This document shows positions 23,108 to 33,145 of a DNA stretch of 33,602 bases, one piece after another. The stretch is from a bacterium (GTDB taxonomy: Bacteria; Patescibacteriota; Saccharimonadia; Saccharimonadales; UBA4665), in NCBI GenBank assembly GCA_021851735.1, contig JAJZCD010000009.1, positions 1 through 33,602 of the forward strand. Reading direction: 5' to 3'. The notes under the pieces were generated by a model that saw only the letters and a list, made by a program, of their open reading frames with translations, was not told where the DNA came from and searched no databases. The position numbers and the translations under genes were made by a program. Within the stretch, counting starts at the first letter, position 1. Every line of letters begins with the position of its first letter.

Positions 23108-25555
23108 TTACTTGGTTGGTTTTGTCTTGTCAAGTTGTCGTAGCTTGTACTCCGTATACCGCTCTGCAGCTAGGCGACTGAGCTTAGGGCTCTCACCTTG
23201 GTTTACGAACTTCATGGCTTCAGCGAGCATAGGGTGTACTTCAGCGACTTTCTCGTGCATTTGCAGTACGAGCTTCCGGTAGCCGGGATGACCTTGCGGG
23301 CTTGTGCGCAACTCGTGTAGGTGGAATGCCTCGCGGGCGTTGTAGGTAATTTTCCAACGCATTTTATGGCCTAGTAGCGTAGCGTATTGAGCTTCTAGTT
23401 GGTGCCCGCCAGCTTGCAGCGCGCTATACAGTTGCAGACTTGCGTCAAAGCACTGTTCGAATGCGTCGGTCAGCCCAGCATCCTCGACCAGCGTAGGCAC
23501 GTCGTAACCGTAGCGGGGGCTCAGGGCTTGCCACTCAAGATCATTAACCATTCGATGTCGCTGTAGGTCGCGGAAGATGCCATAGTCGCACACTAGGTCG
23601 AAGCTATAATTAACTTTTTCTAGAGCACGTCCCGGCCGATGGCGCCGATTCAAGCGCTCCCCCATGTAACTCGTGAAGACGTCTATTTTGCGTTGGTATG
23701 GCCAGGTAGCAACTTCTTTACGCAAGTCTTTGAGTGATAGGTCGCTGTGCTCGTATAGCATGTCCGCCACGATGTCGAGCTCATTAGGCGGGTTGTAATC
23801 GACTAAAGTTACCGGTGCCGTCTCGGCAGTGTGGTTCGGTGGTAGATACTCATGAGCGAGTTTCTTGACGGCTTGGAAGGTATTAGCGCGGTACGCTATC
23901 GTGGCACCGCCACGATCAGGCTTATCGGCCCGTTCCAGGAATACTGACGCTACCTTGCGTGCCTCACCAAGGATCTGTTGACCGGTGGTTCGCGCTTCTG
24001 GCAGCTCATCGCTGAGCAAGTGCATGATTAGGCTCTCAAGTGCTTGGCCTGAGGCGTATATGCCTACGGTTGATTTGGTAGCTACAGGTAACAGCGGTCG
24101 GATAGCGTCACAGGCCTGGGCTTTGGTGGCTCGACGCCAAGCAGCATCCTGTTTAGATTTTGGCGTGTTTGTTGTGGTACGGACGTATTGTGTGAGATCG
24201 CTGACTAGCTTTGAGTAGCTGTCAAAAATCTGATCCATGGTACGGACGTATTGGGTAAGCAGCTTACCTTTTAAGCTACCCGGTGTGTAGTAGCGATATC
24301 GACCAGTTGCGTCTTTTTGGTCGAAATAGATATACCTGGTAGATTGCTCTAGATACGCCGCAAGTCTACCCCATTCCAGTTTTTTTGTGAGTAGGTTACT
24401 GGCATTCTCGACAACAATGTATTGTCCGGCCAATTGCTGTACTGAGTCGTCGCCGTATGCGGTAATGACGCGGTGTAACAATTGTTCATTTTTTTCAACT
24501 TTACCTATAAATTCATCAAGTAAGGTGGCTCGCAGGTCATCACTACGTCGAGATAAACGCGCCATAGCGGCAGCTATTGTAATGGGTGATAGCTTATCGG
24601 TGAACCCGTACACGTCGCCCGTTGTATTGGTGACGAACTGGGCAAGCTCTTCCCTGCCTGCTGCGGTGACGGTCGTAGCGCCGTCTTGCCGCTTTTTGGT
24701 CCAGGGTTCTGTGGTTCTATCTGATGTGCTAGCCGACTTCTCTCCACCCGGTGTAGCTGGATCGTCTGTTGGTTGCCGATCGCTAGAACGTACACTGTTT
24801 GGTTGTTGCTGTGCGTCTGAGTTGTCGGTTTGCGTATTGGACGGCTTGGCAGGTGTTACCTTGGTCGGCGGGTTGGCAGCAAGTACTTCAGCGACTGACT
24901 GCACCTTTGACGGTTCAGCACTGTCAGGACGAAGTGTGAGCGTGTTTGCGACATGCTGCCAAATGTGTCTGAACACCGTTCCAACGTCCTCGGTGGCATA
25001 TATAACTGGTAAGTTGCGCTGTTTGGCTTCCCATAAGTACCCAGCGCGCACTCGTTCTAAGAATGACTCATCCAAACTATCAAATCGTTCACTGGCATAG
25101 CGATCTTTGGTACGTTCGCGTAACGTCGATACCGGTGCGTCCAGTACCAGCATAAGATCGGGTTGCATATCGCCTACGGCAAAGTTAATGATGTCGTTTA
25201 TCTTGTCATAATCTTTGACATCACCTCGTCCGTAGTACTGAATGGCAAGTGTCGTTAAATAGCTGCGGTCCACTAAGCATGTAACACCATTCTCTGTCAT
25301 CTGGCGTATGACTTGTAGTGATTGCGAGCGTGCAGCGTTATAAAGCAAGACTTCAGTGCGCGTGGTCATTGGATAACGTGGATCTTGGGTTAGGTGGTGG
25401 ATGGCGCGGGCAGTCAAATCGTTTTGGCTGTCGGGCTCGTGCATGATTTTAACGGGTATATGTGCGGCTTGCAGCTGCTCGGCAACAAGGTGCACCATGG
25501 TAGACTTGCCGACGCCTTGAGCTCCTTCGATGACTATGTATTTACCGTTACTCAT
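23108..25555 (-). CDS. thymidylate kinase-tandem ThyX-like fusion
   Basis: The 815-residue protein joins successive steps of dTTP synthesis. Residues 1-205 are a thymidylate kinase-like P-loop domain: IEGAQGVGKST (9-19), DRS at 96-98 (DRY/DRH in most Tmk), VLDAP, and a lid RTKDR. A Pro/Thr/Ser/Gln-rich linker spans about 206-310. Residues 311-815 match the long ThyX-like family with two ThyX-fold repeats. The first repeat has YGDDSV (367-372) and EQSTRY (403-408), but WGR at 395-397 where RHR is expected. The second has RHR (666-668), then SPRY, and later REAFHLHELRTSPQGHPGYR-type residues. The FAD/dUMP signature is therefore split between the repeats. SD AAGGGATGA; ATG 25555 overlaps the end of dcd by 8 nt. 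Confidence 0.85.
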   Translation of the reverse strand: MSNGKYIVIEGAQGVGKSTMVHLVAEQLQAAHIPVKIMHEPDSQNDLTARAIHHLTQDPRYPMTTRTEVLLYNAARSQSLQVIRQMTENGVTCLVDRSYLTTLAIQYYGRGDVKDYDKINDIINFAVGDMQPDLMLVLDAPVSTLRERTKDRYASERFDSLDESFLERVRAGYLWEAKQRNLPVIYATEDVGTVFRHIWQHVANTLTLRPDSAEPSKVQSVAEVLAANPPTKVTPAKPSNTQTDNSDAQQQPNSVRSSDRQPTDDPATPGGEKSASTSDRTTEPWTKKRQDGATTVTAAGREELAQFVTNTTGDVYGFTDKLSPITIAAAMARLSRRSDDLRATLLDEFIGKVEKNEQLLHRVITAYGDDSVQQLAGQYIVVENASNLLTKKLEWGRLAAYLEQSTRYIYFDQKDATGRYRYYTPGSLKGKLLTQYVRTMDQIFDSYSKLVSDLTQYVRTTTNTPKSKQDAAWRRATKAQACDAIRPLLPVATKSTVGIYASGQALESLIMHLLSDELPEARTTGQQILGEARKVASVFLERADKPDRGGATIAYRANTFQAVKKLAHEYLPPNHTAETAPVTLVDYNPPNELDIVADMLYEHSDLSLKDLRKEVATWPYQRKIDVFTSYMGERLNRRHRPGRALEKVNYSFDLVCDYGIFRDLQRHRMVNDLEWQALSPRYGYDVPTLVEDAGLTDAFEQCFDASLQLYSALQAGGHQLEAQYATLLGHKMRWKITYNAREAFHLHELRTSPQGHPGYRKLVLQMHEKVAEVHPMLAEAMKFVNQGESPKLSRLAAERYTEYKLRQLDKTKPTK

Positions 25556-26261
25556 AACTCATCCCTTCGATCTTTTGCGGCAATGTACGGTGATCTTTCC
25601 ATGCTTGCGGGAGCATGAGACTAGGCGACCATGATTTGATAAGCATATCAAGATCTGTTCCCGCCTGGTACTTGCCGCTAAACCCATTATCCCGGCCGGC
25701 ACCGTACGTGTCCTCTACTGGTCCGGTTTCGTGGAAAATGATTTGCGCGATACGTTCGCCTACTGGAAGCACTACTGTTTCGCGGTTGTTTAGATTGTAG
25801 ATTTCTAATGTCAAGCGGTTGATACATCCTGGGTCTATCCATCCAGTGTCGAAGCAAACAGCAACGCCGTTTCGTCCCCAGCTGCTACGACTGCGTACTT
25901 CGCAGGCGCCCGGTGGTTTTATGCCAAAGAATTCGTGCGTGTGTGCAAGAATACGCTCACCGGGTTTGAGTGCAATGACTGGGTGGTTGTCCGGGATACC
26001 AACAATAGGCTTAAAGCCGTTTAGTGCACACCATTTAGCATGAGGCATTGCCTTGTATGGCCCATCAAAGTGTCGTTCAACATTTTCACGGTCAAATGGA
26101 TTGTAGACAGCTCGCTCAGTTGTCGTCTCGATGCGGTAGTAGTAATAACCAAGTGTAACGTCAAGGGACGCATTAGCGACGTGCTGGGGAGTAAGTGGGT
26201 GGCATACAATATGGTTTTCTGCTATAAACTGCCGAATTTGAGTATTGCTGAGTACGCTCAT
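25548..26261 (-). CDS. dcd: dCTP deaminase-like protein
   Basis: The 237-residue protein belongs to the dCTP deaminase/dUTPase trimer family. Seen: EVRSRSSWGRNG (the conserved Ser-Arg segment), DTGWIDPGCINRLTLEIYN with the catalytic Glu in LTLE, as in deaminases, and PVGERIAQIIF. It is longer than the usual 170-195 residues, with extra sequence around residues 40-85 and a C-terminal extension (KSWSPSLMLPQAW onward). It should supply dUTP or dUMP for the ThyX-like fusion with which it overlaps by 8 nt. AGGAGGT lies 11 nt before ATG 26261. Confidence 0.88.
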   Translation of the reverse strand: MSVLSNTQIRQFIAENHIVCHPLTPQHVANASLDVTLGYYYYRIETTTERAVYNPFDRENVERHFDGPYKAMPHAKWCALNGFKPIVGIPDNHPVIALKPGERILAHTHEFFGIKPPGACEVRSRSSWGRNGVAVCFDTGWIDPGCINRLTLEIYNLNNRETVVLPVGERIAQIIFHETGPVEDTYGAGRDNGFSGKYQAGTDLDMLIKSWSPSLMLPQAWKDHRTLPQKIEGMSYE

Positions 26262-26457
26262 GCTGACACTGCACCTCCTTTTATTGCGTCCCCACCGTCT
26301 ATTATTTTGACAATATTATTTCCGTAACACAAATGTAGAAAATACACCGATAGATGTATGCAGTATCATACCGCATACCTGTGCAATGTGCTGTTTTATT
26401 TTGCAGTCCAATATGACGTAGCTATAGCTAGTGCCTAGCTACTGGATCGGTAATACG

Positions 26458-26889
26458 TTAGGCTGTTTTTAATTTTGCATATGCAACACAAGCAACACCC
26501 GCGATAATAAAGACGATGCCTGCGGCTTGGATTCCAGAAACCTTTTCTTTCAGCGCCAGCCATCCAAATAGACTGCTCAGTGCAATTGCTCCGCCATAGA
26601 CGACAGGGATAACATATGCCAAGTTGCCGCCCCGGTTGAACACGCGGGCTAGTATGACTGAAAATAAGAAAATACCGATGCCGGCCAGCCCTGCAAAAAA
26701 GATTCCGCTTGCCGTAGTTTTGCCCTTAGTTCTTGACATGATATATACAGCAAATGGGATCACAGTACCAATACCGTTGTAGAGTATGGCTGCTAGCCAG
26801 TTGTCTACTTTGCCACCGGCCAGCCCTGCAAATATTGCAAATAATGTGTAAAACAAAGTACAGAGCAGGATTAAGACTATAAGCGGCAT
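26458..26889 (-). CDS. EamA-type half transporter
   Basis: The 143-residue form from ATG 26889 has about five membrane helices: MPLIVLILLCTLFYTLFAI at the start, then LAAILYNGIGTVIPFAVYI, a GIFFAGLAGIGIFLFSVI helix, YVIPVVYGGAIALSSLFGW and the closing LKEKVSGIQAAGIVFIIAG. That last pair is the EamA/DMT signature (E-x-hydrophobic turn plus final helix). It is half the size of usual 10-helix transporters, so it should act as a dimer or is a single-module member. TTGCTT-N17-TACAAT lies 10 nt upstream of this ATG, so it is preferred over the GTG at 27012. Substrate unknown. Confidence 0.7.
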   Translation of the reverse strand: MPLIVLILLCTLFYTLFAIFAGLAGGKVDNWLAAILYNGIGTVIPFAVYIMSRTKGKTTASGIFFAGLAGIGIFLFSVILARVFNRGGNLAYVIPVVYGGAIALSSLFGWLALKEKVSGIQAAGIVFIIAGVACVAYAKLKTA

Positions 26890-27059
26890 AACGTTAGCAA
26901 TTGTATGCAGTGTGCCGAGAGAAAGCAATAGCAGTGTTTTTTTTGGGGGTATTTTGCTGTGTGAAAGACTTCCGCCTTGTTGTATAGTCTGTAAGCTCGT
27001 AGCTTTTTGCACGCAACAATGAGGCCGTTCAACTGCGCGGTCTCATATATCAATGAACG

Positions 27060-27587
27060 CTAGTTGACAGTATAATGCAGGAGTATATTGTTAGGGCCGA
27101 GCGGCTTACTATCGTGCAGTGTAATCTTATTTGTGAGTGGTTCGTTGAACAGTGGGACCCCTCTGCCAAATAGTGTTGCTTGCATATCTATGTATAATTC
27201 GTTTACGAGGTTAGTGCGCATGAATGCGGTATAAATTTGTGAGCCGCCACATACTGCTAGCGTCTTCACTCCTTCGCTCTCAAGTTGCTTGACGAGCGTT
27301 GCGGGATCTTCGTTGACTGCTTCGACATTTTGGTAGCCGGATACTTTATCGGGGTTGTGGGTGTATACCAAGAGTCGTCGCCCGGGCATAGTTTTGTTGA
27401 ATACGCCTGGTGCTGCCTGGGCAATTGTCATAAACGTGGTGAGGCCCATGACCATGTTGTTAGCATCCTTCACAAGATGGGTAAACAAGTATCTATCCTC
27501 TTTGTTCGTCCAAGCCGTGGATCGATGATTGGTGCTATTACCTATGAATCCATCCGCTGTCATGGCGGCCACTATGATGACTTTCAT
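27060..27587 (-). CDS. dihydrofolate reductase family protein
   Basis: The 175-residue protein has the DHFR/RibD-C fold: VIIVAAMTADGFIG at the N-terminus, TAWTNKEDRYLF with the acid D expected at the folate site (W-x4-D-x3-F), MVMGLTTF (the MGRxT position is MGLTT, so the Arg is missing), GRRLLVYTH and VCGGSQIYTAF near the NADPH site. Both FolA and RibD-like reductases are possible; ThyA nearby needs DHF recycled, which favours FolA-like activity. Its ATG overlaps the TGA of the deaminase gene (ATGA, 27584-27587), so it is the last gene of a coupled operon. AGGAG lies just upstream. Confidence 0.82.
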   Translation of the reverse strand: MKVIIVAAMTADGFIGNSTNHRSTAWTNKEDRYLFTHLVKDANNMVMGLTTFMTIAQAAPGVFNKTMPGRRLLVYTHNPDKVSGYQNVEAVNEDPATLVKQLESEGVKTLAVCGGSQIYTAFMRTNLVNELYIDMQATLFGRGVPLFNEPLTNKITLHDSKPLGPNNILLHYTVN

Positions 27588-28543
27588 ACATGTCTCCTAA
27601 CCTTTTTGTCTGATAACTCTAGTATCTTGACGGCGTAGCCATCGGAATGATCCTCTCGATAAACGATCTCGGCAATGTCAGTTCGCGATATCATACGGGC
27701 GCAGGCTGGGCACGGCAGTAAGTTGATAAACATTGTTGTATCGTGCAGATCAATGCGTTCACGCTGAGCCTTGATAAGTAATTCAACCTCAGCGTGTGTG
27801 GTGTCATAGTAGTTCAGATCATTGGGCGGTGAAAAGTTGGTTTCCCGTGAGGCGCCATAATGCATGGCATATGTCTGATATGGCAATACGGAGTTGTAGG
27901 CGCGTGCTAGGAGTTTATACGTTGCCGTACTTCTTCGTCCTAAAGCGACCCCAGTTTGAAAGCCGTAATCGTACGAATGCTTGGCAATCCGGTCCGCTAT
28001 TTCCAGCATCCCGCGCTCATTAAACGTGCCGTTCGTCGGTATGTCTGGTAATACTGTCTGTGCAGCGAAAGCTTTTGCCTCAGCTTCATCGGTAAACGGA
28101 GATACCAGCTCGTATGGTGTATTTCGTGTCACTAGTACATAGTATGGTGTTTGTGTGTGAAACGAGTATTTCCATGAGCCGTTAATGAATACGGTCTTTC
28201 GAAAGTCAAGTTTTTCAAGGATATAGCGCAACTCTCGTTGAAAATAGTGAAGCGTATACACCTTATGTTTGCTGGTAGAGGCAGTAACCTTATCTATGAC
28301 AGCCTGCACGGTTGCTACGTCAAGCGTGCGAAATTGTGGCTGGTTCTCAAACCCAAGTACGTACGGCTCTTTGGCGAGGCCAAGTATGACGTTACCTTCC
28401 GGTAGATAGGTCTTTACAAGCTGCGCAAAACGTGGCTCACTGATCTCGCGCGGTGCGGCTATAAATGTTGCAGATAGCGAGTTGACTGGTTTTTTGCTGC
28501 CGAAAGCTAGACCGCTCCAGTCAAACGCTGTTGGGTCGGTCAT
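27584..28543 (-). CDS. cytidine/dCMP deaminase-type protein with large N-terminal domain
   Basis: The 319-residue protein ends in a zinc deaminase domain (about 180-319): THAEVELL holds the zinc His and catalytic Glu (H250, E252) and LLPCPAC the two zinc Cys (277-281), followed by AEIVYREDHSDGY as in dCMP deaminases. The first 170 residues are not part of a normal deaminase. They contain FIAAPREI, EGNVILGLAKEPYV, FENQPQFRTL and RKTVFINGSWKYSFHTQTPYY, and I cannot name the domain. The start is ATG 28543, which overlaps the TGA of the HIT-Nudix gene (ATGA). By family it would make dUMP from dCMP for ThyA. The extra domain may bind the substrate or partner proteins. Confidence 0.8.
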   Translation of the reverse strand: MTDPTAFDWSGLAFGSKKPVNSLSATFIAAPREISEPRFAQLVKTYLPEGNVILGLAKEPYVLGFENQPQFRTLDVATVQAVIDKVTASTSKHKVYTLHYFQRELRYILEKLDFRKTVFINGSWKYSFHTQTPYYVLVTRNTPYELVSPFTDEAEAKAFAAQTVLPDIPTNGTFNERGMLEIADRIAKHSYDYGFQTGVALGRRSTATYKLLARAYNSVLPYQTYAMHYGASRETNFSPPNDLNYYDTTHAEVELLIKAQRERIDLHDTTMFINLLPCPACARMISRTDIAEIVYREDHSDGYAVKILELSDKKVRRHV

Positions 28544-29532
28544 TGTAACTTCAGTACCTTTCGTAACATGGTGCGTGTGCCTGATGGTACGCGCTTGGAT
28601 TCTATTGCATATTGGATGTTCATCCAGATTGATGGTTGAGGGCCAGTGGCTGGCGTTACCTTGGCGTGATCTGCAGTTTTGTCGCACACTAGGTACGTAT
28701 TCAGTAGAAATATTTGGGGTGTGTTATATGATGTCCCAAGATGCGGCTCGTACATAGTGTGGCGTGTTCGTTCGGTGTGAGATCCTATCAACGTTAGTGT
28801 TTCCTGGTTAATGCTCAGACCGGTTTGGTCGTGGACTATACGGCCTAGTTCATTTTCTAAGGGTACGCTGAAATCCTCCACGTACCCACCGGGCAGCATA
28901 AGCGTCTTCAGGGGTAGACGAGTGTCTTGGCTATTTTCCATCAATAGCACTTCTCCATCTTTATTCATAATAATGGCGCTACAAGATATTGGTACGCTTG
29001 ATGGCTGTGCATACTTTTCATAGTATTTTGTGCTAAGTGCAACGATTTGCTTGGATTGCGCTCGATATAGCTCGGCGTTTTCGAGCGGCGTATGCTTGAG
29101 CGTGCGATAATTCCAGACGGTCATGTCGGGGCTGTCGGATGGTATACAGTGGATGTGTAGGTGGTCTTGTACAGTACTGTTTACGGCCGCACCTCCGTCG
29201 CGAATGACGTATTGCACGTCCTTGAGGCCGTGAACTTTACGGATGAGTTTTTTGGCTATGTACATCATTTTTCGGGTTGTTTGCCATTCTCTTTCAGTCA
29301 ATTCTTTAACGGATTTTATATGGCGACGGGGAATAATCATCAAGTTACCGTCGATGTACGCGTACAGTGCTACGGTCATTACCATACCGTGCTCTTCGTG
29401 GAAAATGTACTTATTCCGTAAATCGCAAAAAACACACTTGCCTACAGTTGTCCAAATCTTGCCGTAGTAGCCGCCAGTTCGTGCGTCGCGGTAGTACACC
29501 TGCTTTTTTTGCTCTTCCGGGGTGAGTTTCAT
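28540..29532 (-). CDS. HIT-Nudix fusion protein
   Basis: The 330-residue protein joins two nucleotide-hydrolase folds. Residues about 25-135 are a HIT domain with CVFC (33-36, zinc) and the histidine triad HLHIH (124-128) in an otherwise standard setting (RDGGAAVNSTVQDHLHIHCI, cut as VNSTVQDHLHIHCI). Residues about 180-325 are a Nudix fold: SAIIMNKDGEVLLMEN, LPGGYVED and GRIVHDQTGL. The Nudix box is degenerate: after GGYVED the catalytic RExxEE is GRIVHDQ, so both key Glu are lost and the domain may only bind. HIT enzymes cleave nucleoside phosphate anhydrides or transfer NMPs. The gene overlaps both neighbours by 4 nt. Confidence 0.85.
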   Translation of the reverse strand: MKLTPEEQKKQVYYRDARTGGYYGKIWTTVGKCVFCDLRNKYIFHEEHGMVMTVALYAYIDGNLMIIPRRHIKSVKELTEREWQTTRKMMYIAKKLIRKVHGLKDVQYVIRDGGAAVNSTVQDHLHIHCIPSDSPDMTVWNYRTLKHTPLENAELYRAQSKQIVALSTKYYEKYAQPSSVPISCSAIIMNKDGEVLLMENSQDTRLPLKTLMLPGGYVEDFSVPLENELGRIVHDQTGLSINQETLTLIGSHTERTRHTMYEPHLGTSYNTPQIFLLNTYLVCDKTADHAKVTPATGPQPSIWMNIQYAIESKRVPSGTRTMLRKVLKLQ

Positions 29533-30089
29533 CGGCGTTCCTTGAGAGGATCTTTGCGTAGCTCCATAAAATCCTTGAAGACGTCGCCTAGCTGGCCTCC
29601 GATAGCCCGCTGTATGATTTTAGTCGTACTCAGCGCCGTAGACTGGCGATCGACAACCTTAACCTCGCCACCATATTTAGTGACGATTTTGTATTCTTTG
29701 GACTCCTTATATGCCGACGCCCAGTCTTCTTTGACAGTAATGAATACGTCAGGCTTCAGTAACCCTAGTGCTGGGACACAGCTGGGCTCCGGTAGTATAG
29801 TGACGAAATCTACGCTTCGCAGGTAGGTGAGCATTTCGGCGCGCAGCTTTTCGTCTAGGATCGGCTTATTGGAACCCTTTACCCTACGGATGGCCTCATT
29901 ACCGCTGACGCCGACAACTAAAATGTCGCCTTCTTTCTTAGCTTCTTCCAAATACCGGCATTGACCGACGTGTAGCAAATCCCAGGAACCAGCCGTAAAC
30001 ACGACTTTTTTATTTTTTTCTTTGAGCTTTTCATGAAGCGCCATTAAGTCGCTCATAGTCACCAGCCGTTTTTTCCAGGCAGCTACCAT
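29529..30089 (-). CDS. cytidylyltransferase-like nucleotidyltransferase
   Basis: The 186-residue protein has the HIGH-superfamily nucleotidyltransferase core. TAGSWDLLHVGQCRYLEEA (32-50) follows G-x-F/W-D-x-x-H-x-G-H, but the second His is Gln (HVGQ). LVVGVSGNEAIRRVKG follows, and the C-terminal TALSTTKII fits the R-x-G-h-STT motif. Relatives are the RfaE2/HldE adenylyltransferases, glycerol-3-phosphate and phosphocholine cytidylyltransferases. Preceded by GAGGGG, 8 nt before ATG 30089, and 32 nt downstream of the kinase gene. Together with the APH-fold kinase it could form a kinase-nucleotidyltransferase pair making an NDP-activated small molecule, but this is inference. Confidence 0.82.
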   Translation of the reverse strand: MVAAWKKRLVTMSDLMALHEKLKEKNKKVVFTAGSWDLLHVGQCRYLEEAKKEGDILVVGVSGNEAIRRVKGSNKPILDEKLRAEMLTYLRSVDFVTILPEPSCVPALGLLKPDVFITVKEDWASAYKESKEYKIVTKYGGEVKVVDRQSTALSTTKIIQRAIGGQLGDVFKDFMELRKDPLKERR

Positions 30090-30121
30090 TATTATGTCCC
30101 CTCGTTATGCTTGATCATTGC

Positions 30122-31093
30122 TTATTCTAACATGGCTATTTGCGTTAGCGTGTTGCGCTTTAGTAAACAGTTGCGAGTACGAATAAAATGTTCGTTTTGT
30201 TCCAAGAATTCGTACGGGTTGTGCAGCAGGAACTTGTAAAAATCGTAGAGTAAGAACAGCTCAATGAGCGGTTTTATGGTCGCTATATGTGGTAGCTTTG
30301 CCTTGCCGCGTTTGCTATACCCAGAGTAGAGGAAGTACTTATGCACTTTATCCGGTGTCTTATACTTACAGTCGACTAGTAAGAACGCTAATGTACGCGC
30401 AATGTCAAACGCGGGATGGCCCCATGCAGCTTTTTCAAAGTCTATGATACCGGTAATCTCGTTGGAATGAATCTCGAATAGGACGTTGCCTCGAACGAAG
30501 TCCATGTGCAGTGCTTGCTGGCTTGGTAGCATTTCAAGTTTGCGTACCAGAGCTTTATAGTTTGTAAGGTTTTGCGGTGGTCGCAATGCTAGTTTCTCAG
30601 CCATAGCAGACTGCACACCGGGGTTGTTGAAATATTGTTCCATACGGCAACAAATCGCATGGTACTCGTCGGTTACTAATGGCAGAGTGTCTTTAGTAAG
30701 ATCTCTTAGAACAGCATGCGTGTCACTTAGTGCTTTGCCAAGTTGTTTGATATGTCCCATCGTGTATGCTTCCCATGGGATGGTCTTGCCGGGCAAGTAA
30801 TTGTACAGTGCGCCGTAACGCGTTCTTGCGCCAACATGAAGGCAGATTATTCTATGATCTATTGTCTGACGTACCGGGAGACCGTGCGTTGCTGCGTAAT
30901 TGGCCACGCGGTTGGCATTATTTATGCGACGTAACATGGCACGCTCATACTTGTATATAACGAGGTTTACTTGCCGTCCGTTTTTTAGCGTAGCGGCATA
31001 TGACTCATTCCGATACCCCTTTTGTGCGGTGTGTATATAGTCTGGGGACAAGCCGTATTGTTGTAGAATTCGTCTCACTACCTTCTCTGTCAT
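30122..31093 (-). CDS. APH-fold kinase/phosphotransferase
   Basis: The 323-residue protein is an aminoglycoside/choline kinase-like enzyme: LHMDFVRGNVLF contains the HxDxxxxN catalytic loop, and GIIDFEKAAWGHPAFDIAR the metal-binding IDFE and the downstream acidic region. The N-lobe has NLVIYKYERA-type Lys near residue 50. Members phosphorylate choline, ethanolamine, sugars or drugs; resistance is not implied. Start: ATG 31093; TATACT lies 4 nt upstream (leaderless). The frame is open upstream to 31252, but that overlaps thyA and is a shadow. It is first in a five-gene coupled operon and divergent from thyA with a 48-bp gap. Confidence 0.85.
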   Translation of the reverse strand: MTEKVVRRILQQYGLSPDYIHTAQKGYRNESYAATLKNGRQVNLVIYKYERAMLRRINNANRVANYAATHGLPVRQTIDHRIICLHVGARTRYGALYNYLPGKTIPWEAYTMGHIKQLGKALSDTHAVLRDLTKDTLPLVTDEYHAICCRMEQYFNNPGVQSAMAEKLALRPPQNLTNYKALVRKLEMLPSQQALHMDFVRGNVLFEIHSNEITGIIDFEKAAWGHPAFDIARTLAFLLVDCKYKTPDKVHKYFLYSGYSKRGKAKLPHIATIKPLIELFLLYDFYKFLLHNPYEFLEQNEHFIRTRNCLLKRNTLTQIAMLE

Positions 31094-31141
31094 CGTGAGT
31101 ATAGTGTACAGGATCGGTCGGCTTACGCTATACTTCCAGTC
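31094..31141. promoter_or_regulatory. divergent promoter pair thyA / kinase operon
   Basis: In 48 bp there are two -10 boxes facing away from each other: TATACT 7 nt before thyA ATG 31142 (+) and TATACT 4 nt before the kinase ATG 31093 (-). Clear -35 boxes are absent. Both mRNAs should be leaderless or nearly so, and the shared region allows common control of thyA and the operon that contains the DHFR-family and deaminase genes. Confidence 0.6.
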
Positions 31142-31954
31142 ATGACACATCCGGAGTACGAGTACCTTAAGCTCATGGTGGAAATCATCAAGAATGGTAA
31201 GAGTAAACCGACGCGTGGCATTCATGGCATTACGTCCATTTTCGGTGCGCAAGTGCGATTCGATATGCGGGCCGGCTTTCCGTTGTTGACAACTAAAAAG
31301 ATGCCGTTCAAGACTTTACTACACGAACTCCTTTGGTTTGTATCCGGGACCTCTGATGTAACATACTTGCACGAACATGGGATCAAATATTGGGATGGTT
31401 TTTTGCATGAGGGCTCTAACGATTTAGGCCGTATATACGGCGTACAGTGGCGACATTGGAAACGACCGGATGGCAGTGAGTTCGACCAGTTGCAATGGGC
31501 GATAGAGCAGCTCAAAATGAGCCCGGATTCTAAGGGTATCATTGTTAATGCCTGGAATGCCGGCGAGCTTGACGATATGCGTCTCCCTCCCTGTCATACC
31601 ATGTTCCAGTTTGATCTAACGAAGGGCAAATTGCGGTTGCAACTCTATCAGAGGTCTTGGGATGTTTTTTTGGGCGCTCCGTTCAATATTGCCCAATATG
31701 CTTTGCTTCTACATATGGTTGCGTATCTAATTGGAGCGGAGCCGCGAGAACTGATTGTGGCTGCTGGCAACGCGCATTTGTATAAGAATCATATAGCAGA
31801 CGCCAAAGAACAACTCAAGCGTAAGCCGTACCCCTTTCCAAGGCTCAAGCTGGTTGGTGACGTTGAAACCATTGATGACTTCAAGGAAGAAAACTTTATT
31901 CTGGAAAATTATCAATCACATCCCCGCATAAAAACAGATCTAGTTATCGTTTGA
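31142..31954 (+). CDS. thyA: thymidylate synthase ThyA
   Basis: The 270-residue enzyme makes dTMP from dUMP with methylene-THF. Seen: R25 in the phosphate-binding loop (TRGIHGITSIFG), TTKKM, GRIYGVQWR, the catalytic Cys in LPPCHTMFQF (C151), QRSWDVFLGAPFNIAQYALL-type segment with R171 and the dUMP-specific Asn (N182), and AHLYKNH with H212 and Y214. Asn at 182 marks a dUMP rather than dCMP enzyme. Two departures: the TGTG after R25 is GIHG, and AGNAHLY has Asn where most have GDAHLY. Length is normal. It is leaderless (TATACT, 7 nt) and divergent from the kinase-to-DHFR operon. Confidence 0.96.
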   Translation: MTHPEYEYLKLMVEIIKNGKSKPTRGIHGITSIFGAQVRFDMRAGFPLLTTKKMPFKTLLHELLWFVSGTSDVTYLHEHGIKYWDGFLHEGSNDLGRIYGVQWRHWKRPDGSEFDQLQWAIEQLKMSPDSKGIIVNAWNAGELDDMRLPPCHTMFQFDLTKGKLRLQLYQRSWDVFLGAPFNIAQYALLLHMVAYLIGAEPRELIVAAGNAHLYKNHIADAKEQLKRKPYPFPRLKLVGDVETIDDFKEENFILENYQSHPRIKTDLVIV

Positions 31955-31969
31955 TAGGCAAGCTGATAA

Positions 31970-33145
31970 CTACGTGGTCGTTAGAAGCCTACGATAGATT
32001 GCGAGATGCTCGCGACACATACGATCGGTCGTGAATTGTTGTGCAAAGGTCTTCCGGCATACTTCACGTGTAGCAGATGTTTGTTCTGCTATTGCTGTGG
32101 CAAGTGCGCGCGCGGTAGCGGTATCGTCTAACGTGCCATCCGCCTGGATAATCTTCTCTACGACATGCCCTGTTTTACCCGTTTTAATAATCTCTGGGAG
32201 AGCGCCGGAATCCAGACAAACAACTGGCGTTCCACAAGCAAGTGACTCGACGGCCGCAAGCCCGAATGGTTCCGCGAATATAGACGGTACAATAGTGCAC
32301 GTGGCATTTGCCAAGAATGTTTGTTTCGATTCATGCCGGTCCAGAAAACCGACGTACTGAATCTCTTCGTTGTCTACCAGCGGCTTAATGACTTCGTTCC
32401 AGTAGGTGTCTTTCTTGTGATCAGCGTAATGCTTGCCTGCTATCTTGAGCGTCAATGGCCGTGTTGCTTTTTTGTTGTACAGCTTGACGGCTTGTATCGC
32501 CAAGTGAACTCCCTTTGGTTGGATGATCCTACCGATGTATGCAATATAGTCGTCGGTTGGCAGGGCGACAGGATGCAGCTGATCGGTCGGGATGCCGTGG
32601 TATACATTCCCGACCCAATTGGTCTCTGCCGGCATAGTAGCTCGCTGAGCGTATGACATCGATATCCAGTTTAGTGATGCGTACTTAGGGAATACATTCT
32701 TGTATTTGACGAGAAAATTAAATGGGTCGTGGTGCGTGAATACTACAGGTTTAATGCATAACGAGGCAAATGGAAGTGCAATATCTTCCTCGTTAGTATA
32801 AATGTGTATGATATCGAATTCGTCGTTGTTGGCCATGGCGTAAGCCTTGGCAATCAACTCGCTTTGTACTTGGCGTGAGAGTGTTATAAACGTAAACGGG
32901 TGTTTCTTGAGCAAGTCGATATACGTATCGTCGCGACCGGCTAGTTCTTGCTCAAAGTATCGTAAATCTGCCGTAATGTTACGTACGGTGGTGTCGACTG
33001 GACCAGGTGAAAACAATGTTACGTCTACACCTTGTGCCTGTAAACCTTCAGCTAGCTCCAACGCAAGTTTGCCAGGAGAGAAAATTACTTTTGGCAAAAT
33101 ATCGCGGTGCATAAAAATATGCGGGACGACTAATCCGACTCGCAT
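31970..33145 (-). CDS. GT4-family glycosyltransferase
   Basis: The 391-residue protein is another GT-B enzyme, distinct from the tandem pair at 5.9-8.1 kb. The N-terminus MRVGLVVPHIFMHRDILP has a longer acceptor loop without GG, then FSPGKLALELAEGLQ. The donor domain has AYIGRIIQPKGVHLAI, KIAGKHYADHK, QYVGFLDRHESK and the E-x7-E pair in FAEPFGLAAVESLACGTPV. The substrate is unknown. ATG 33145 is 3 nt after the stop of the 34-codon acidic ORF and shares its promoter. It converges on thyA with a 15-nt gap. Confidence 0.9.
   Translation of the reverse strand: MRVGLVVPHIFMHRDILPKVIFSPGKLALELAEGLQAQGVDVTLFSPGPVDTTVRNITADLRYFEQELAGRDDTYIDLLKKHPFTFITLSRQVQSELIAKAYAMANNDEFDIIHIYTNEEDIALPFASLCIKPVVFTHHDPFNFLVKYKNVFPKYASLNWISMSYAQRATMPAETNWVGNVYHGIPTDQLHPVALPTDDYIAYIGRIIQPKGVHLAIQAVKLYNKKATRPLTLKIAGKHYADHKKDTYWNEVIKPLVDNEEIQYVGFLDRHESKQTFLANATCTIVPSIFAEPFGLAAVESLACGTPVVCLDSGALPEIIKTGKTGHVVEKIIQADGTLDDTATARALATAIAEQTSATREVCRKTFAQQFTTDRMCREHLAIYRRLLTTT

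Follow-up and report, generated by a model that had tools for sequence, protein, structure and literature searches.

Two putative routes to thymidylate in a Saccharibacterial genome: a tandem ThyX fused to thymidylate kinase beside a linked ThyA cassette

Contig JAJZCD010000009.1 of assembly GCA_021851735.1 (Saccharimonadales), analysed here over its whole length of 33,602 bp (the window; contig C50 of a 1.13-Mb genome that is 97.7% complete), encodes two predicted thymidylate synthases: a ThyX-like protein fused to thymidylate kinase (Tmk), and ThyA. Saccharibacteria live on other bacteria and have very small genomes. Why should one of them carry both enzymes? The comparative data presented below make it probable that ThyX and the dCTP deaminase Dcd undergo non-orthologous displacement by ThyA, dihydrofolate reductase (DHFR) and a dCMP deaminase, and that the genome studied here is an intermediate in which both sets are found. 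The genes concerned are the following.

23108..25555, minus strand: Tmk-ThyX-ThyX fusion, 815 aa (TIGR00041, PF02511, motif pattern, relatives)
25548..26261, minus strand: dcd, dCTP deaminase family (PF22769; orthologues in most relatives)
27060..27587, minus strand: DHFR of the Thermotoga maritima type, DHFR/RibD_C superfamily (nearest solved structure 1cz3)
27584..28543, minus strand: dCMP-type deaminase with an N-terminal alpha/beta domain (AlphaFold2 (AF2) model, Foldseek, PDB profile search, conservation)
28540..29532, minus strand: HIT protein; the Nudix extension at the C terminus is optional, and degenerate in the window
29529..30089, minus strand: nucleotidyltransferase (NTase) of the RfaE-C type, HxGQ replacing HxGH (TIGR02199, orthologues in cassette genomes)
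30122..31093 (start approximate), minus strand: APH-fold small-molecule kinase (PF01636; catalytic motifs conserved)
31142..31954, plus strand: thyA, thymidylate synthase (NF002497 above cut-off)
31970..33145, minus strand: GT4 glycosyltransferase, convergent with thyA, cassette member (orthologues in six cassette genomes; thyA adjacent or near in mapped cassettes)

Two gene units and their distribution

The first-pass annotation of this DNA had described eight genes, from the fusion to thyA, as a single neighbourhood. All eight are present and open, and reading frames and profile searches bear out their placement and translational coupling: dcd and the fusion gene overlap by 8 bp, and NTase/HIT, HIT/deaminase and deaminase/DHFR by 4 bp each. 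The deaminase overlap implies a start at ATG 28543, as the listed GTG 28687 falls within the HIT gene; likewise, the listed TTG 31252 of the kinase gene would run into thyA, and ATG 31093 leaves a gap of about 48 bp. Conservation across relatives excludes chance as the origin of this gene set. It also divides the set into two units, a dcd-fusion unit found order-wide and a cassette, to which the GT4 gene at 31970-33145, omitted from the earlier list, belongs as well. A small EamA-like membrane protein is encoded between dcd and the cassette (26458-27012) and has no counterpart at the mapped dcd-fusion loci of relatives.

The main sample consists of 60 relatives of the order, in which genes were counted by sequence or profile match. 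The fusion is matched in 56 of them and PF02511, i.e., a recognisable ThyX, in 55, so that an investment in dTMP supply formerly called striking for such bacteria turns out to be common among them. Any match to the ThyA family is found in nine genomes only, and the fusion is therefore the sole recognised synthase for most of the order. In the 20 fetched regions and 11 named loci that were mapped, the dcd-fusion unit usually lies close to the ribosomal L10/L7 genes. Its dcd gene product scores 112 bits with PF22769, over the gathering score, and 92.4 bits with TIGR02274, marginally below the cut-off of 92.8. Beyond the order, tandem ThyX matches, ranging from strong to weak, occur in 38 of 145 genomes across the phylum Patescibacteria, mostly in frames too short to include a fused Tmk. 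G009 has two copies on separate contigs (L104 and L105): one is an intact tandem ThyX that stands alone, the other is fused to Tmk and has broken motifs.

The cassette comprises seven genes (APH kinase, NTase, HIT, dCMP deaminase, DHFR, ThyA and GT4) and is found in 6 of the 60 relatives. Orthologues of the NTase (72–83% identity) strong orthologues of HIT, and orthologues of GT4 (60–66%) occur in an identical set of genomes (G000, G006, G012, G030, G034 and G046), and no close orthologue of any of the three was found in the remaining genomes of the sample. Synteny confirms that these neighbours stay together in related genomes, as had been proposed, for the cassette. Its recurrent order in the fetched regions and named loci is kinase, NTase, HIT, deaminase, followed by dhfr, thyA or both; exceptionally, the kinase follows the deaminase in G012, and dhfr often lies elsewhere in the locus. 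Of the genomes behind the named loci, four (L090, L092, L094 and L100) are apparently identical with G006, G012, G046 and G034 of the sample. All but one of the cassette relatives found by name are Saccharibacteria or Patescibacteria group records, and the window genome is hence very probably saccharibacterial. G030 has another dCMP-type domain, joined to HIT, as its deaminase, and this suggests that the cassette requires a deaminase at that position.

Decay of ThyX in genomes with ThyA

The key ThyX motifs (see the next section) were read in every relative in which they are visible. Among ThyA-less genomes with a visible second ThyX domain, the RHR motif is intact in 47 out of 47. Eight genomes of the sample were considered as ThyA genomes, i.e., as having a ThyA-family gene other than a short paralogue (G049 was left out on this basis). 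The tandem is degraded in five of them (G002, G006, G030, G037 and G034, the last with Y91G and R174H) and gave no match in G046. Seven further cassette genomes can be added: the tandem is missing from six, and that of G203 has RHN and lacks SxRY. Altogether, ThyX is degraded or absent in 13 of 15 ThyA genomes; an intact tandem is thus found in 2/15, versus a tandem in 49/52 ThyA-less genomes, two of which end at a contig edge ahead of domain 2 (Fisher p 2e-9, a value uncorrected for ancestry and obtained with 7 of the 15 ThyA genomes chosen because they carry the cassette). Few ThyA genomes thus retain an undamaged ThyX part, and the two routes are mostly alternatives. The distribution of dcd, which is absent from 5 of the 8 ThyA genomes versus 3 of the 52 others, is as expected if the deaminase takes over the supply of dUMP.

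Three ThyA-less genomes, G024 (73% complete), G052 and G057, are exceptions. G052 encodes a single-domain ThyX of another type (THRVFSRNSASSRAVP) beside dcd, together with a degraded 443-aa Tmk-ThyX remnant (L080:6413-7333 and L080:8022-9350), indicating that the tandem also decays on replacement by another ThyX.

Selective constraint was compared within a genus by counting unique changes at positions that do not vary among four outgroups. In G002, which has a ThyA-like protein, the ThyX part shows 101 such changes versus 14 in ThyA-less G001, and the Tmk part 3 versus 15; in this polypeptide, the synthase halves have therefore decayed while the kinase has been spared. For the window protein the counts are 10 versus 17, and there is no sign of relaxation. 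As the cassette ThyA shares only 27–36% identity with the ThyAs of G002 and G037, decay of the tandem also accompanies unrelated ThyAs.

At L077:10744-13195, G002 encodes a ThyA-like protein in which PHD replaces PFN; a DHFR and a second Dcd-like protein come next, and the three might form another route to dTTP. A change from PFN to PHD is known to shift specificity towards dCMP, and the G002 protein may therefore differ from ThyA in its reaction.

The enzymes of the two routes

The fusion protein consists of a dTMP kinase (residues ~1-205), a linker (~206-283) and two ThyX domains (~284-535 and ~556-812). Its parts, with ThyX residues numbered as in T. maritima, are as follows.

24943..25555 (approximate), minus strand: Tmk domain (PF02223 at residues 9-198, TIGR00041 above cut-off)
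23951..24706, minus strand: ThyX domain 1 (WGRLAAYLEQSTRY and AIRPLLP; positions R80, E86, S88, R90, Y91 and R147 kept)
23117..23890, minus strand: ThyX domain 2 (LQRHRMV and YNAREAFHLHELR; positions R78, H79, R80, N163, R165 and R174 kept)

The Tmk part passes the equivalog cut-off of TIGR00041 (94.7 bits versus 83.25) and the ThyX part is matched by PF02511 in two stretches (121.6 bits versus a gathering score of 24.8). Compared with T. maritima ThyX, domain 1 has W-G at positions 78-79 and has lost R165 and R174, and domain 2 has lost R147. The RHR motif, S88, R90, Y91 and R174 are nevertheless all found in the chain as a whole, distributed over the two domains. R174 participates in dUMP activation and S88, R90 and Y91 in methylene transfer (PMC8316439). 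These residues were read from separate alignments of each domain to T. maritima ThyX, as a joint alignment of both halves was misaligned; in domain 2, E86 and the match of (S/T)xRY to S88-R90-Y91 depend on the placement of a 3-residue insertion, and are paired by the hhalign alignment. The division is sharper in six distant two-domain relatives, since SxRY is gone from domain 2 and retained in domain 1. Judging from these residues, the two domains most likely share one active site.

The first-pass annotation had also proposed that the locus holds two ways to dTMP, from Dcd to ThyX and from a dCMP-type deaminase to ThyA with DHFR, and comparative genomics supports this. The ThyA product passes the equivalog cut-off of NF002497 (335 bits versus 327), contains the motifs LPPCHTMFQF (catalytic Cys) and GAPFNIAQYA (PFN), and is 60–84% identical to the ThyAs of other cassettes. 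Another protein of the thymidylate synthase superfamily (208 aa), nearest to TIGR03283 and far under its cut-off, is encoded on contig C33 of the window genome (L081:2400-3026); short proteins resembling it are matched in G006 and G049. The best solved relative of the DHFR is that of T. maritima (1cz3, E 2.8e-19), and the gene scores 51.4 bits with RibD_C versus 40.3 with DHFR_1. Its close orthologues occur in seven genomes, each with a ThyA-family gene; among the eight ThyA genomes, only G037, whose assembly is fragmented, gave none. ThyA oxidises folate and thereby requires DHFR, a need that ThyX does not have (PMC9931769). The AF2 model of the deaminase (pLDDT 88.8) has dCMP deaminases as its top 15 Foldseek matches, and the zinc motifs HAE and PCPAC are present. 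An N-terminal alpha/beta domain of about 165 aa is covered by none of the PDB matches listed. On this model, the protein would be a dCMP-type deaminase and dCMP its likely substrate. A route through dCMP deaminase, ThyA and DHFR is thus supported by the Foldseek matches, by the occurrence of this DHFR only with ThyA and by the frequent loss of dcd where ThyA is present. A phage origin of the deaminase is not supported: no relative was found among viral contigs, and phage records contained only distant dCMP deaminases.

Regarding the other cassette proteins, the catalytic motifs of the APH kinase are conserved. The NTase resembles heptose-phosphate adenylyltransferase but scores below the cut-off of TIGR02199 (118.8 versus 181.5 bits) and is not classified as HldE; HxGQ replaces HxGH in all aligned cassette proteins except that of L095 (L091, a wrong-strand row, was removed from this alignment). 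The HIT half is similar to Ap4A phosphorylase. The Nudix extension that follows it is optional, and the Nudix activity formerly attributed to the window protein is not supported, since the catalytic glutamates of REUXEE are gone (RIVHDQ versus REVREE in a G006 relative). As a guess made with low confidence, the kinase, NTase and GT4 might together produce an activated sugar or alcohol and transfer it.

A 5-hydroxymethyl-2'-deoxyuridine (5-hmdU) DNA kinase (HMUDK) helical-domain protein (PF18723, E ~1e-97) is encoded in 3 of 60 Saccharibacteria: G030 (L074:8447-9409), G057 (L149) and G054 (L150). DNA hypermodification was considered because this gene lies near the cassette of G030, and was rejected, as the two other genomes that have it, G054 and G057, have no cassette.

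Probable displacement, alternatives and known systems

Taken as a whole, the two routes can be viewed as follows. In route 1, which would be ancestral to the order, Dcd would make dUTP, giving dUMP after hydrolysis, the tandem ThyX would methylate dUMP with FAD and methylene-tetrahydrofolate, and Tmk would phosphorylate the resulting dTMP. Domain 1 would provide S88, R90, Y91 and R147 to a shared site and domain 2 RHR, N163, R165 and R174, so that a dimer would form a pseudo-tetramer and have two sites, not four. In route 2, the dCMP deaminase would make dUMP, ThyA would methylate it and DHFR would recycle the dihydrofolate. In most ThyA genomes, route 1 decays: ThyX residues are lost or whole domains vanish, dcd is often lost, and Tmk can stay under constraint. 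Displacement of this kind is the explanation that we favour with some confidence. Opinion is evenly balanced on a fuller statement, namely that the tandem ThyX is a divided-site synthase fused to Tmk and the only recognised one of most Saccharibacteria, and that ThyA has displaced it repeatedly, accompanied in the window by the deaminase and a kinase-NTase-HIT-GT4 pathway of the same cassette.

Several observations, besides the sampling limits attached to the Fisher test, count against displacement or against a divided site. The window genome and G012, the only intact tandems among the eight ThyA genomes of the sample, retain both routes. G057, which is 97% complete, gave no match to ThyX, ThyA or Dcd. 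The fusion fails the equivalog cut-off of TIGR02170 (47.9 versus 87.9 bits), and its ThyX part is accordingly classed, from sequence, as a divergent two-domain ThyX and not as a TIGR02170 equivalog. In close relatives, domain 2 also has (S/T)xRY and could hold a site by itself. A profile-profile comparison of the two ThyX halves gave no significant alignment, and their common origin therefore rests on the shared match to PF02511. Lastly, the AF2 model of the tandem, built from three sequences, reached a pLDDT of only 41 and was not used, so that the split site is deduced from residue patterns.

Several of these observations also bear on other explanations. Both synthases might be needed in a stable dual system, for example under differing oxygen, flavin or folate supply, and no transition would then be under way. 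The intact routes of the window and G012, the unrelaxed window fusion and the conservation of the cassette ThyA, a long-time resident of Saccharibacteria, are all compatible with this; however, degradation or absence of the ThyX part in 13 of 15 ThyA genomes means that both are rarely retained, and such a system seems unlikely. That the tandem ThyX is no synthase at all and serves thymidylate kinase in a structural or regulatory capacity, as an appendage, would accommodate the low TIGR02170 score, the motifs divided between halves, the poor tandem model and the lack of a recognised synthase in G057. Yet the catalytic residues are retained where no other synthase is present and lost where ThyA or another ThyX is, and decay of the ThyX part leaves the Tmk part under constraint, which makes an appendage very improbable.

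A third proposal concerns route 2, which might make a modified pyrimidine nucleotide or a sugar-linked product, dTMP not being its main output. It draws on the strict linkage of the kinase, NTase, HIT and GT4 genes to ThyA and the deaminase. Against it, the ThyA passes a curated equivalog cut-off and has retained PFN, the loss of ThyX and dcd where the cassette is common fits dTMP supply, and no hypermodification gene is common to the cassette genomes; we regard it as quite improbable. The displacement of ThyX and Dcd is thus retained as the probable explanation.

Nearly all sampled Saccharibacteria keep their own thymidylate synthase, and the locus points to which enzyme this is. It also offers a natural experiment in which an essential enzyme is replaced by another inside one genus, and allows the function of the divergent two-domain ThyX to be tested directly. 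Humans have no ThyX, and the enzyme is under study as a target for antibacterials (PMC3498832). The linkage of the kinase, NTase, HIT and GT4 genes to ThyA points to a pathway of which no description was found. Among openly licensed papers, nothing relevant was found on tandem ThyX, on ThyX joined to thymidylate kinase or on the ThyX of Saccharibacteria or Patescibacteria. The tandem ThyX with its apparently split site, the Tmk fusion and the linked kinase-NTase-HIT-GT4 genes look undescribed.

The ThyX of T. maritima (TM0449) belongs to the same family, PF02511, and the window domains jointly hold its R78, H79, R80, E86, S88, R90, Y91, R147, N163, R165 and R174. In contrast to TM0449, the window protein has two diverged domains in one chain, with these residues divided between them, and is fused to a dTMP kinase. 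The synthase of phage Tunturi_5 (PP885688.1) likewise consists of two halves of PF02511 type, the first carrying SxRY and the second RHR, and adjoins a dCMP deaminase, but it is devoid of Tmk and only ~26% identical to the window protein. This phage (L163) has a jumbo-size genome, and its dCMP deaminase carries a CBM5/12 domain. The dCMP deaminases of T4, Streptococcus mutans and human share their fold and the HAE and PCxxC zinc motifs with the window deaminase, which differs by its extra N-terminal alpha/beta domain of ~165 aa.

Displacement of ThyX by ThyA with FolA, and the coupling of ThyA to FolA, are already known (PMC9931769); ThyX/ThyA displacement goes back to Myllykallio 2003, as cited in PMC9931769 and PMC11974145. 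Displacement of ThyX by ThyA and DHFR is therefore a known principle, and what is unusual is the detail of the fusion, the cassette and the presence of both routes intact. As in the known cases, ThyA and DHFR occur together and ThyX is lost; unlike them, the deaminase here would also replace Dcd, four extra genes come along, and the replaced tandem fusion can keep its kinase half.

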